Shown here piece by piece: positions 34,387 to 39,959 of a DNA stretch of 59,798 bases. The stretch lies in the NCBI GenBank assembly GCA_903940125.1, contig CAJAJL010000079.1:1-59798 (forward strand), read 5' to 3'. The position numbers were made by a program, and so were the translations under genes. Within the stretch, counting starts at the first letter, position 1; the number at the start of each line of letters is the position of its first letter. A model generated the notes under the pieces. The model made no database searches. It was not told the DNA's origin and was given only the letters and a program-made list of their open reading frames with translations. This stretch comes from an uncultured Chlorobiaceae bacterium. GTDB taxonomy: Bacteria > Bacteroidota > Chlorobiia > Chlorobiales > Chlorobiaceae.

Positions 34387-34403
34387 GACCACCTGAGGTG
34401 GTC
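34387..34403 (-). terminator. Intrinsic terminator of the NACHT gene
   Basis: A 7-bp GC-rich stem (GACCACC with GGTGGTC, 3-nt loop) followed on the minus strand by a T-rich run. It lies about 125 bp beyond the stop of the large minus-strand gene. Confidence 0.7.
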
Positions 34404-34422
34404 GTTTCTGTTGTCGTTTGTT

Positions 34423-34480
34423 ACCAGAACATTTTGGCGTGCGGCGCTCGTCCCTCACTGCCGCTCACCAAAATGTTGGT
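34423..34480 (-). repeat. Nested palindrome downstream of the variable region
   Basis: A perfect 10-bp outer arm (AACATTTTGG at 34428-34437 with its complement at 34468-34477), extended by ACC/GGT past a 2-nt bulge, encloses an inner GCGGC/GCCGC stem. The element lies about 50 bp beyond the stop codon of the putative DGR target. DGR variable regions are known to be followed by hairpin/cruciform structures that aid retrohoming. Confidence 0.6.
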
Positions 34481-34527
34481 ACTGCACTCTCGCTCAAAAA
34501 GCAAAGCCGGAATGAGCTGCCAACTGA

Positions 34528-37500
34528 CTACGGGACGAAGACCGGGCGGAAGCCAATGAAGGAGTTACGGTTGCCGGGGGTGTAGTCGTAGCGAAAAGCC
34601 GACCGACAGTTCCCAGCATAGGTGAGCCAGCTACCACCACGAAGCACACGGGTCGAACAAGTATCATCATACCAACTATCAGTCCACTCCCACACGTTAC
34701 CGGCCATATCATAAAGCCCTTCCGGTGTTGCTCCTTCAGGATAGCGGCCTACCGGTGTTGTCACTCCTTCATTGTCATTATAGTTAGCGCGGGTTGGTGT
34801 CGGTTCTGGCTCTCCCCATGGATATGTTCTGCTCTCTTCTCCACCTGCGGCATACTCCCATTCGATTTCGGTTGGTAATCGATAGAGGTGATCATTCGCT
34901 CCACCGCTCTCGATCAATGATAGCCACAAGCAATAAGAGCGTGCGGCATACCAACTTATACCAACTACAGGCTGTTCATCCTTGTTGAATCGTTTGTCAT
35001 CAGCAGAATCTGAGCAAAAGCGGGTAGCTAACTCATTCATGTCCTTAAGATAATCGCTGAATCCCTGGATGCCCTTTGCAAGGCCAAGCAATTTTGTTTT
35101 ATAGGTTTCAATGGGAAGGATACCTGCAAATGCGGGTTCTTTTGATGCCAGGTAGTTTATAAACCTGCCATAGAGTTGATTTGTAACAGTGTATTTTGCT
35201 ACATAAAGATCTGGTAGTGTTTCAGGCTGCTTCGTAAGGGAATAGGTGAATCTTCCTCCCTTAATCAGGATATAATGAGCGCCAAGCTGGTCTGTATGAT
35301 AGTTGTTGAGGCCTTTTTCAACAAACTTCTTCACGGCCTCAAGTGCTTCCGGATTGCCTGTAGCTTTCAGGCATTCCTGCAAATATCGCTGCTGATTTTG
35401 CGTTGTACCAGGGTTATTTAACCTTACTTCTAAAGCCTCTATGTCTATCGTTTTGGCTTCTTCTATCAGGGTTACCAGAAGATCTTGCTGCTTTTGGTTC
35501 AAATTACCACTGATCGGTGAATCAAAGATCTCTTTTATAAAGGCATTAACGGTACATTCCTCACTCTGTCCAATAAAAAAGCGGAGCGGCTCTGACCACC
35601 AGTCGTCGACAAAATGAGTAACAAGTTTGGTAATCAGCTTTGGAGTGCAAGCCTTGCTGAGCTGAACTGCCGCCATGTATTCCCTGAATGATTTATGGCG
35701 GAATCCGTACATCCCATCATCCTTTTTGCCATACTCTATGAGTAACCCAGCATGGTAAATCATATCTTCGCAAAAGCCGTCGACTGAAGGAGGATTATCG
35801 AGCTTATCCAATTCAACCTGTATGTGTGACTTCATTGTTTTTTTACTTGCCTCGTCCTTTCGCACTTTCTGTTGCAACCAAAGTGAGACCGGAGCAAGTA
35901 CTCGCATCGCATCATCTAAAGGCAACTGCAAGCCATTTTGTTGTCGTTTTTTCTGATAACCGAGGAGATAATCCAAGACATTTTTGTATAAATCCGTACG
36001 ACTTTTCGGTAAACAATCTTTTTCTTTCCAGAGCATGGCCATAAACTGCAGTAACAAAGGGACACCGGCTAATGCCCACAGACTCTTGTTTTTGTCATGA
36101 CCACTTTTTTCTTTGTCTTGCTTCAGATAGGCTGAAATGGCGTCTGCTTTTACTTTAGCTTTTTGTAGCTGGCTAACTGCCCATAAAGTTTCGTCACCGA
36201 CAGGGAGTTCACTTGATAAGACGGAAGTGAACCATTTCTGTAAAAAAACGGCCTGTTGATCTTCTGTAAAATCCATTATATCAGCCCGTATTGAATTATT
36301 CAGACTGATACCATCGAGCTGCCTGTACCCTGTAGTCCGTGATGTAACCACAAAAAATGCATTGGTATACAGGGTAACAATACTATTAATCCACGCGCAC
36401 ACCTCCTTTCTGTCATTAACATCACTGATTTCATCAAGTCCATCGAGCAAGACAAGTGTTGTTCGGTTTGCAAGCCATCCAGAAAAAATAGCTTGAGGGA
36501 TAATCAGGTATTTTTCCTCATATATTTCCTGGATAAATGCAGGCAGAGAAAGATAGACACCATCTTTCTTTTTCAGTTCACGAAGCGAGAGAAAAAAAAC
36601 CATAACCGGTTCTGTAAACCCTAACGCTTTATAGCCATCATTTTCAAGACAGGATAATGCATAATGCTTGAGTAAAGTGGTTTTCCCTGAACCTGGATCC
36701 CCGACCACAAGCATCAGGTGTTTTTTTTGAAAAACCAGTTTCATGATATTTGCCGGAGTTCGGATGTGCCCATCTATCTGTTGATCAAGTCCTGAAACAA
36801 CATCAAAACGCATCTCGCTATGCCAAGTTTCTGAAAGACGTAATTCGATAAAGATGTTTGATAGCTTTACTGAAAACTCTTTAATTGCATTAGGCAGTTT
36901 TTGGTTAATATTTTCCAGTTCAGCTATAAGAAAGTTTTGGTAACGGGTAGCATATACATTATCAGTGGGGTTATATCCTTCTGGTGAAACTGAGGTGATA
37001 GATGATGGTGGATCCTTTTTGGTATAACCTTGAATGGGATAGCTTTTGATATGTGAGGTTTCGTCAGGAAAAACACTCGGATCAACCCTCCAGACACCAG
37101 GCGCGCTTTCTTCCTGATAGCAAATTGGAAACACATCAATCTTTGTGCCGTCAAAGCAACCATATAAGGCTCTTTTAGGGCCATTTTCCAGATAGGTTGC
37201 TCCTGCTGCCAGTTGTATGAAATCACCGCCAGGTTCCACCTCAGTTTGATGATAGTGCCCTTGCAGAAGAATATTGATATGAGTTTTTAGAGATTGCCTG
37301 ATTTTAACTCGTTCACAATTGGTATGGAGCCAATCAAACGGATGATGCACCAATGCAAATGCGAGATCAAGCTCATTTTTTTGCCGTTTCTTCTTTAACT
37401 GAGTAATACATTCGTTAATACATGAACGCCCGATGCAGAGCATGCCATGATCTGATTTAGCTTCTTTGCAAAACAGAGTGCTATTCATTAAGAGTAGTCC

Positions 37501-38004
37501 CAGCCGAATGTTCTTTATCTCGCAAGAAATCAGTTCACAGGTGGACTTATCTGGAAAAACCCGAGGTAGAGAGAGAGTATTGAAATAATCATTGTACCAT
37601 GAAGCATAGCAAGCAAGTTTACCGGTAAGGTGATACATCGGAGATTGCTGAAAATACTCATCAATATCTTTCTGGGTTTCAAGAGTTCTTAAAAGGCCAA
37701 TACCCTTTTTACGCTCCACATCATGATTGCCTGGAACAATAAACAAGTACTCCCGTGTTAGATCAGCTGCCTTAAGCAATGCATCAAAGAATGTCGTCGC
37801 TGGGGCATTTACCCCACCCTTAAAAACCCCAACATCACCTTTACCTGCAATGTCGCCTGTTGCAAAAATAAGATCAGGGTTCCAATTGCCTTGCTCACGA
37901 TACCATTGAACAGATTCAACTAGAGCCTTAAGTACAACATCAGATTCATAAGGATTTGATGTACTCAAATGAATATCCGAAACATGCAACCAGGTTACTG
38001 CCAT
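34528..38004 (-). CDS. Metallophosphoesterase-NACHT-FGE/C-type-lectin fusion; putative DGR target
   Basis: A 1158-residue multidomain protein. Residues 1-290 are a metallophosphoesterase (VSDIHLS, ATGDIAGKGD, VPGNHDVE, VHHPFDW, LQGHYHQTE). Residues about 425-650 are a NACHT NTPase with Walker A GDPGSGKTT (Lys441) and Walker B LVLLDGLDEI (Asp521), followed by a helical region. Residues about 905-1158 are a formylglycine-generating-enzyme (FGE)-type domain with the C-type lectin fold, ending in RVLRGGSW...NRNSFIGFRP. This last domain in this position is the standard target of diversity-generating retroelements. The likely mode is ligand sensing by the variable lectin, NTPase switching and phosphoesterase output, by inference from NACHT/STAND systems. 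The gene appears intact. Confidence 0.85.
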   Translation of the reverse strand: MAVTWLHVSDIHLSTSNPYESDVVLKALVESVQWYREQGNWNPDLIFATGDIAGKGDVGVFKGGVNAPATTFFDALLKAADLTREYLFIVPGNHDVERKKGIGLLRTLETQKDIDEYFQQSPMYHLTGKLACYASWYNDYFNTLSLPRVFPDKSTCELISCEIKNIRLGLLLMNSTLFCKEAKSDHGMLCIGRSCINECITQLKKKRQKNELDLAFALVHHPFDWLHTNCERVKIRQSLKTHINILLQGHYHQTEVEPGGDFIQLAAGATYLENGPKRALYGCFDGTKIDVFPICYQEESAPGVWRVDPSVFPDETSHIKSYPIQGYTKKDPPSSITSVSPEGYNPTDNVYATRYQNFLIAELENINQKLPNAIKEFSVKLSNIFIELRLSETWHSEMRFDVVSGLDQQIDGHIRTPANIMKLVFQKKHLMLVVGDPGSGKTTLLKHYALSCLENDGYKALGFTEPVMVFFLSLRELKKKDGVYLSLPAFIQEIYEEKYLIIPQAIFSGWLANRTTLVLLDGLDEISDVNDRKEVCAWINSIVTLYTNAFFVVTSRTTGYRQLDGISLNNSIRADIMDFTEDQQAVFLQKWFTSVLSSELPVGDETLWAVSQLQKAKVKADAISAYLKQDKEKSGHDKNKSLWALAGVPLLLQFMAMLWKEKDCLPKSRTDLYKNVLDYLLGYQKKRQQNGLQLPLDDAMRVLAPVSLWLQQKVRKDEASKKTMKSHIQVELDKLDNPPSVDGFCEDMIYHAGLLIEYGKKDDGMYGFRHKSFREYMAAVQLSKACTPKLITKLVTHFVDDWWSEPLRFFIGQSEECTVNAFIKEIFDSPISGNLNQKQQDLLVTLIEEAKTIDIEALEVRLNNPGTTQNQQRYLQECLKATGNPEALEAVKKFVEKGLNNYHTDQLGAHYILIKGGRFTYSLTKQPETLPDLYVAKYTVTNQLYGRFINYLASKEPAFAGILPIETYKTKLLGLAKGIQGFSDYLKDMNELATRFCSDSADDKRFNKDEQPVVGISWYAARSYCLWLSLIESGGANDHLYRLPTEIEWEYAAGGEESRTYPWGEPEPTPTRANYNDNEGVTTPVGRYPEGATPEGLYDMAGNVWEWTDSWYDDTCSTRVLRGGSWLTYAGNCRSAFRYDYTPGNRNSFIGFRPVFVP
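34531..34650 (-). other. Putative DGR variable region (VR)
   Basis: The last 40 codons encode the lectin-fold motif W1126-LTY-AGNCRSA-F-R-YDY-TPGNRN-SF-IGFR. The putative variable codons are CTC, ACC, TAT, TTT, TAC, GAC, TAC, TCC and TTC. All end in C or T and each can arise from AAC or AAT by changing adenines only, the signature of DGR mutagenesis. Invariant neighbours keep other codons. No template repeat or reverse transcriptase is seen in the window, so the assignment rests on this pattern and the domain type. Confidence 0.65.
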
Positions 38005-38657: not shown

Positions 38658-39704
38658 TTAAAGTTCGTCGTTAGTCCTGGCCACTGGTCTCTGTGATGGA
38701 GCTGAAAGACCTGCTATACTTTTCAGATTTCGGTTCAGGTAAGCCAACAGTTTGCAGATTGCTTTGCGAAGAAGTTTGGCTGGCTTTCTGCGAAGTTTGG
38801 TTACCAGCAGAAAATTTTTGCGCGCTTTCTCTCGATAGGTGCGTGGTTTTTTCTGCCCTTCTGGCGCATGAGCATGGTGCTGATCAATAATCTGTTCGGT
38901 TTTCTCTCGGGCATCATTGAGCAAACCAAGATCTGTCGGATATCGAATGTCTGCAGGGGCACACGTTGCATCAAGAATCAGTTGCCCTTTGTTCGAAGGC
39001 TGCTCAACCAAGAGTGACCGTGTTGATGCTGGTTCATCCAGCAGAGGCTGATAAGCAGTTGTTTCGTCGCAAGTTGGCTCAACATTGAGCGGCTCTTGCA
39101 ACACAACCTGTTCTTGTGCTGGTTTATCACATACCGATGCATTGATCTCTTGCACCTGTGCTGCTGCGATTGGCTCATCAACAAGCAGTTTCACTTCCCT
39201 GACATCTCTGTCTCTTACCGCCCCTGGTGCAGCAGGCTTGTCTTGAGTACCCGAACCGTGATTATCTTTCTGCTGCTGCAAACGCTCTTGTCTCTCAAGC
39301 TGTTCACGATACTGTTGGTGAAGATGCTCATCCACATGAGCAATATCAAGCGAGGTGAAGCGTTTGCGAAAATGCGTCATCAACGACGGATTGAATGGCG
39401 GTTCAATACGAAAGCTCTCAAAGCCTATAAAGAATTGCAGATAGGGATTTTCCTGTATCTGAGCAACGGTTTCTTCATCACTCAGTCTGAGCGTTTCCTT
39501 GATAATCAATGAACCAAGTGCAATACGAACACTCAATGCAGGATTACCATTGGGTGCAGTAAAATATTTGGCATAAATCTGTTCTGCTGCAAACCATGGA
39601 ATGGTGTTGGACAACTTGAACCAACGATTTTCGGGATCGAGTCCCCCTGTAAATGGCAGTATAAAATCAGTAAACGATAGCTGCTTGAACTGTGGCTGAT
39701 ACAT
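38658..39704 (-). pseudogene. Truncated IS1182-type transposase
   Basis: The frame starts MYQPQFKQLSFTDFILPF, the normal N-terminus of IS1182-like transposases (an in-frame ATG 42 bp upstream is less likely). The DUF772-type N-terminal domain and the first DDE motif LILDATCAPADIRYPTDLG are present, then the match stops after RNLKSIAGL and ends in unrelated residues. The C-terminal part with the remaining catalytic acids, about 150-200 residues in intact relatives, is missing, so the element should be inactive. Between the two domains is an unusually long acidic insert with degenerate LLVDEP/VLQEPL/LLDEPAST/LLVEQP repeats. Insertion-sequence ends were not identified. Confidence 0.75.
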
Positions 39705-39959
39705 GCTTGATTTCGAGGTGCAAGGGTTTTTGACGATTTCTATCATTTACCTTGCACTAATATATCAAAAATATCAGCTTAATCTATATATAATATGAAG
39801 TTAACATTTGTTCAGTAAGCCCTAATATACCGTTTCCCGCAGGCAGGCTAAAGGAATTTTGGTTAAGATTTGTACATTAGGTGTAATAATGATCTCACAG
39901 AAGATTGCTGCAAGAAATTATATACTATGAGACAAGTTCAGAAAAGCGGAGATACTTAC

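Follow-up and report, generated by a model that had tools for sequence, protein, structure and literature searches.

The receptor gene and its variable repeat

We analysed a 59,798-nucleotide stretch of DNA (hereafter the window) from an uncultured Chlorobiaceae bacterium, together with the genome from which it derives (2.98 Mb, 129 contigs, completeness 98.6%). An earlier note, made from the sequence alone, had described a gene on the minus strand of the window as joining a metallophosphoesterase, a NACHT and an FGE-type C-lectin domain, and Pfam matches (Metallophos 6-253, NACHT 430-593, FGE-sulfatase 912-1155) confirmed the gene, its strand and this architecture. The gene and its domains are the following:

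34528..38004, minus strand: target gene, encoding a 1158 aa metallophosphoesterase-NACHT-FGE receptor (open reading frame and Pfam matches)
37246..37989, minus strand: calcineurin-like phosphoesterase domain, residues 6-253 (Pfam PF00149, motif scan, fold)
36226..36717, minus strand: NACHT domain, residues 430-593 (Pfam PF05729, motif scan, fold)
34540..35271, minus strand: FGE-type C-lectin domain (FGE-sulfatase), residues 912-1155 (Pfam PF03781, AlphaFold, Foldseek)

The motif scan of the protein recovered the complete phosphoesterase set (SDIH, ATGD, GNHD, VHHP and GHYH) and intact Walker A (GDPGSGKT) and Walker B (LLDGLDE) motifs in the NACHT domain. Comparison of the predicted model with known structures matched the N terminus to purple acid phosphatase and the NACHT core to NLRC4, NOD2 and NLRP3. 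The full-length AlphaFold model had a mean pLDDT of 73.6 and a pTM of 0.49, its FGE part being poor, and the FGE domain was therefore refolded alone (pLDDT 93). The isolated model matched formylglycine-generating enzyme and Treponema TvpA (2y3c), and the residues of the variable repeat (VR) fall within its C-lectin fold. Direct reading of the FGE domain showed a single cysteine (residue 1133, in RGGSWLTYAGNCRSAFR), at a site that we take to be equivalent to the active-site cysteine pair C336/C341 of human FGE; the position of the partner is a variable codon, and the catalytic pair, five residues apart, was not found in the domain. Because only one of the two active-site cysteines is present, the domain is probably a binder rather than an enzyme.

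PADLOC matched the protein mainly to the candidate-system model PDC-S60, and its N terminus to an 'Effector' model. As one element of an explanation that we consider very probable as a whole, the gene product would be an NLR-like (STAND) receptor in which the phosphoesterase at the N terminus acts as effector, the NACHT domain in the middle as switch and the FGE/C-lectin domain at the C terminus as sensor. A nitrogen-fixation region (29309-50985 of the window) surrounds both the receptor gene and a DUF772 transposase gene (38658-39746), with homocitrate synthase, sigma-54 activator and histidine kinase genes on one side and nifH, PII, nitrogenase and nifB genes on the other.

We use type B for the lineage of diversity-generating retroelements (DGRs) in which an HRDC accessory gene is followed by the reverse transcriptase (RT) gene and then the template (TR), and type A for the Avd-bearing kind found on contig C78 of the same genome. 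Comparison of 65 VRs and 25 AAC-rich repeats from the genus (the latter including L166, which by its flank is probably an unmutated VR) showed that twelve codons (9, 10, 11, 14, 19, 21, 22, 23, 27, 29, 30 and 31) are AAY in the templates and hypervariable in the VRs, while RGG, CRSA, R, P and GFR are nearly fixed. The nine codons singled out in the earlier note (CTC ACC TAT, TTT, TAC GAC TAC and TCC TTC), which end in C or T and are set between RGGSW, AGNCRSA, TPGNRN and IGFR, all belong to this set; the other three are still AAC in the window. The VR and its variable codons, the latter drawn from the genus-wide VR comparison, are located as follows:

34528..34650, minus strand: DGR VR, type B, 41 codons including the stop (genus comparison, template fit)
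34618..34626, minus strand: variable codons 9-11 (CTC ACC TAT)
34609..34611, minus strand: variable codon 14 (AAC, unmutated in the window)
34594..34596, minus strand: variable codon 19 (TTT)
34582..34590, minus strand: variable codons 21-23 (TAC GAC TAC)
34570..34572, minus strand: variable codon 27 (AAC, unmutated in the window)
34558..34566, minus strand: variable codons 29-31 (AAC TCC TTC)

Comparison of the window VR with the template of a sister species, G082, which was the best fit among the 25 templates tried, showed changes at 14 of 29 adenines but at only 2 of the 94 remaining bases (Fisher p=7.3e-9), the two non-adenine differences being GCG to GCT and CTG to CCG. When the gene was compared with its nearest orthologue (L052, from another species and about 70% identical), all of the 12 AAY codons differed versus 6 of the 29 other VR codons (p=2.4e-6). 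Most other type-B VRs had 0-4 non-adenine mismatches to some TR in the genus. The adenine bias against the G082 template and the variability of the twelve AAY codons bear out the earlier proposal that the gene is a DGR target. These comparisons identify its last 41 codons as a VR of the type-B lineage and show, at the level of sequence, that it was written by error-prone copying of a type-B template close to that of G082. Given the two non-adenine differences, the template that did the writing is not itself among those compared.

The type-B lineage and its complementary 3' flanks

Type-B loci are ordered target, HRDC accessory, RT and TR, and no Avd was found in those examined. A receptor of the same architecture as that of the window is the target at loci L131, L132, L134 and G082. 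With a threshold of more than 60% identity across most of the query, a type-B RT was found in about 18 of the 61 genomes searched and target-type receptors in 41 of 65, and some genomes, such as G029 and the one analysed here, carry targets or templates without the RT. These searches show, from gene content, that the type-B lineage is widespread in this Chlorobiaceae genus. The metallophosphoesterase-NACHT-FGE architecture also occurs in Thermodesulfovibrionales, Poribacteria and Brocadiaceae (L060, L061, L107), with clear DGR TR-VR pairs in L061 and L107.

The features beyond the end of the VR, with the partner of its flank at a type-B locus on contig C77 of the same genome, are:

34493..34527, minus strand: VR 3' flank, complementary to the 3' flank of type-B TRs (TCAGTTGGCAGCTCATTCCGGCTTTGCTTTTTGAG; complementarity score, shuffles)
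L008 3070-3094: 3' flank of the C77 template, partner of the window flank (complementarity)
34420..34482, minus strand: long hairpin, about 47 nt after the VR, with a loop conserved in related copies (GAGGGACGA; flank comparison)
34387..34403, minus strand: terminator-like hairpin followed by a T run

The approximately 30 nt after the window VR are the reverse complement of the approximately 26 nt after type-B templates. The window flank scored 19 against the C77 template flank and against that of G082, a score reached by 0 of 2000 dinucleotide shuffles, and of the 55 VRs to which a credible template could be assigned, 52 scored at least 14, whereas shuffled flanks averaged about 6.4. Minor variants of the template flank (CTCAAAGTAAAG, CTCAAGAGTAAAG and CTCAAGGGGAAAG) were accompanied by matching changes in the VRs of the respective lineage; permutation of lineages over VRs gave P below 5e-5, a value to be read with the related sequences being non-independent and the minor lineages consisting of few loci. 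By sequence, the VR and TR 3' flanks of type-B DGRs are thus complementary and covary by lineage, which is new here: no description of such TR/VR flank pairing was found in the literature searched, mostly without subscription papers. Flank complementarity was not found in the type-A and other non-Chlorobium loci tested, including those of Photobacterium, Prosthecochloris, cyanobacteria, the phages VHML, BalMu-1, phiARM81mr and FP_Mushu, and Bacteroides p00, and in BPP-1 it was weak (p from 0.0035 to 0.32, depending on the stretch compared).

The complementarity suggests RNA-guided target recognition. A tentative model, to which we give somewhat less than even weight, is that type-B target choice occurs by base pairing, the TR flank RNA, or cDNA still joined to it, docking where the VR ends, either on the sense strand or on the mRNA of the target. 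If this is true, a single template could write to many receptors in trans, the window gene among them, and VR cassettes could move between receptor bodies; if the pairing proves functional, the type-B DGR would be a new variant. How mutated cDNA enters the VR is still incompletely understood according to a 2026 study (PMC12875486), and flank pairing with the template RNA that covaries by lineage makes target finding by the cDNA directly testable in a natural system. An origin of the complementary flanks from an inverted-repeat mobile cassette was rejected, as VRs without a cassette, such as that of the window, retain the flank.

The loop motif of the long hairpin was present in 45 of 60 VR flanks, with paired base changes, and in 0 of 24 TR flanks. 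A few copies lie without a VR nearby; a BPP-1-like cruciform was set aside for this reason, and the hairpin, which may be a MITE-like element, is left out of the argument.

DGR loci in the genome and the source of the window VR

A whole-genome search found reverse transcriptases on contigs C78 (a DGR) and C102. The C102 enzyme was rejected as a DGR RT on reading its sequence, GTPQGG...SPLL and a C-terminal maturase-like part being of group II intron type. The loci other than C78 that the comparisons below require are:

L019 4501-7515 and 7546-8937: C72 receptor pair, a NACHT-FGE gene written in trans by the C78 DGR and a second FGE gene
C77 3217-3096, minus strand: TR77, the template closest to the window VR within the genome (repeat comparison)

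Contig C78 ends in a DGR made up of a metallophosphoesterase-NACHT-FGE receptor (43% identical to the window protein), Avd (NF033474), a template and an RT that is cut by the contig end, the remainder of which was found nowhere else in the assembly; the YVDD and IGNLTSQ catalytic motifs of this RT are preserved. The C78 VR differed from its own template at 21 adenines and at 0 other bases up to the repeat end. The C72 receptor, a NACHT-FGE protein with a different N terminus, showed 15 differences within the C78 template and, because all of them are at adenines, is by this comparison a trans target of the C78 DGR. The second FGE gene on C72, directly upstream of this receptor, is older-looking, and its VR no longer fits the template. 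Comparison of the window VR with the C78 template gave 42 non-adenine mismatches.

The C77 locus aligned to the complete G082 locus in two blocks, with 18 nt between them on C77 versus about 1.2 kb in G082. The segment missing from C77 corresponds to the HRDC accessory gene and the greater part of the RT gene; still present are the C-terminal end of the RT (residues 364-432, 71% identity) and the N-terminal end of the accessory, and a decayed receptor end with a shortened VR adjoins the template. The alignment shows that the sole remaining type-B locus of the assembly lost its accessory and RT genes through an internal deletion of about 1.2 kb. A ParE-type toxin-antitoxin pair (L008 2309-2865) adjoins the deleted DGR on C77, and a toxin-antitoxin-like pair also lies next to the G082 DGR.

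The earlier note had proposed searching the genome for a DGR RT and for a template reading AAC/AAT at all nine of its codons. A DGR RT (C78) and AAC-rich templates do exist, but neither is matched to the window gene: the C78 RT uses another template, and TR77, beside which the RT is a remnant, reads AAC at only seven of the nine codons. Comparison of TR77 with the window VR showed mismatches at 14 of 27 adenines and at 13 of 96 other bases (p=8e-5). A cognate TR matching the window VR at non-adenine sites was not found in the 129-contig assembly, nor was an intact type-B RT, although the latter absence is weak evidence in an assembly of this many contigs in which the C78 RT is itself cut. The repeat comparisons thus show that the template that last wrote the window VR is absent from the assembly.

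Receptor bodies and VR types did not follow one another. Just upstream of the VR, the FGE body of the window receptor was 75-91% identical in DNA to that of the C72 receptor, yet their VRs are of different DGR types. The window VR region was up to 96% identical to that of G082, whereas the receptor bodies were mostly 50-70% identical, and the C78 and G082 receptors shared 84-99% identity across much of the NACHT region despite having VRs of types A and B, respectively. We infer that receptor bodies and VR types have recombined with each other.

A sub-case of our best explanation is that a complete type-B DGR, present in the cell but missing from the assembly, is diversifying the receptor in trans today. 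The fragmentation noted above, the window flank that is still complementary to type-B template flanks, and the precedent of C72 and C78 in the same genome are consistent with this, whereas the completeness of the genome, the single type-B template-flank motif found in it and the two non-adenine differences to the best template, which suggest that time has elapsed since the last write, argue against it; we regard it as less likely than not. Writing of the VR by the C77 template itself before the loss of its RT gene is very unlikely. TR77 is the best template-like match in the genome, is of the right family and has A-biased mismatches, but because 13 non-adenine bases differ (2 for G082) it was not the last writer; moreover, GGTGGTAGC is common to the window VR, the decayed C77 VR and the G082 template, while TR77 has GGCGGGAGC. 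Slightly less probable again is that the type-A RT of C78 serves the C77 template, and hence the window gene: it is the sole DGR RT in the assembly and its motifs are intact, but it has its own template, is about 40% identical to type-B RTs, which adjoin another accessory, and would be using a template that mismatches the window VR at non-adenine sites. Ordinary diversifying selection or paralogue recombination with no retroelement, for which the exchange of bodies and VR cassettes between receptors could be cited, is extremely improbable given the concentration of changes at template adenines.

Proposed mechanism and comparison with known systems

In the mechanism that we propose, an error-prone RT would copy the template RNA and the cDNA would replace the VR, with changes at as many as 12 AAY codons and at a few neighbouring ones; according to the VR comparison and the FGE model, these lie in the terminal, loop-and-strand part of the lectin domain. 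Ligand bound by the hypervariable lectin face would lead the NACHT domain to oligomerise and the phosphoesterase to be switched on. The phosphoesterase may then hydrolyse a nucleotide signal or pool, stopping phage growth, as mutational data on the anti-phage protein DS-8 suggest. Today the receptor would either be frozen or have a trans-acting writer, a type-B DGR that the assembly failed to capture. Taken together, the best explanation, which we hold to be highly likely, is an NLR-like receptor written by a type-B DGR, with its template missing from the assembly, the C77 locus deleted, a defence output, and a present state that is frozen or trans-written.

Immune sensing is favoured by the similarity to DS-8, which has been tested. 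Kin or self recognition instead of phage sensing, which Dore et al. (2024, PMC10907252) put forward as another possible role of DGR-NACHT receptors, is unlikely for the window receptor, the closest tested architecture being the anti-phage DS-8 and no link to cell-cell contact having appeared in this analysis. A defence receptor of the kind favoured here would extend the DGR-diversified sensors by an immune-type receptor whose effector is a phosphoesterase, and in this genome two different DGRs, of which one is broken, serve a single receptor family.

Like Treponema denticola TvpA (PDB 2y3c; Foldseek E 8e-13), the window protein has a DGR-variable FGE/C-lectin fold; TvpA, however, is a variable protein that is not known to have phosphoesterase or NACHT domains, and it is not an NLR-like receptor. 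The BPP-1 DGR likewise writes a C-lectin VR specifically at adenines. Efficient homing in BPP-1 depends on an element immediately 3' of the VR (Guo et al. 2011, PMC3240598), a short GC-rich hairpin with a GRNA loop, whereas in type B the flank is complementary to that of the template RNA. DGRs of Chlorobium phaeobacteroides and Pelodictyon phaeoclathratiforme with several VRs were listed in 2012 (DiGReF, PMC3521204) and resemble the present ones in belonging to green sulfur bacteria and having several VRs; in the accessible parts of that paper, NACHT is not mentioned, by text search, and neither two DGR types per genome nor flank complementarity is described.

The best NCBIfam models for the window phosphoesterase were those of the anti-phage proteins DS-8 and DS-9. 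DS-8 (DefensePredictor, PMC13092281; NCBIfam NF053861), according to the accessible parts of its description, joins a metallophosphoesterase and a NACHT domain in one anti-phage protein, as the window protein does, and needs both; unlike the window protein, it is not described there as bearing an FGE/CLec domain or as a DGR target. The cut-off of NF053861 (790 bits) was not reached by the window protein, which scored 85.7 bits over the phosphoesterase only (1-232 of 994).

DGR-diversified STAND/NACHT-CLec proteins have been described as putative antigen sensors of clade 5 DGRs, among them the targets of DGR 3, 6 and 7 of Thiohalocapsa PB-PSB1, of which that of DGR 7 carries a cAMP-phosphodiesterase domain (Dore et al. 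2024, PMC10907252). The same paper also reports, for Thiohalocapsa and others, trans targets and DGR loci degraded by transposons. The window protein is like the Thiohalocapsa sensors in having a NACHT switch fused to a C-terminal FGE/CLec domain with a VR. It differs from them in that no MoxR/vWA ternary partner was recognised beside the gene, in that its effector is N-terminal in a single 1158 aa protein, and in that its writer would be a type-B Chlorobium DGR with complementary VR and TR 3' flanks. DGR-diversified NACHT-lectin receptors and anti-phage phosphoesterase-NACHT proteins are both already described, and the window gene joins the DGR-diversified NACHT-CLec sensors.
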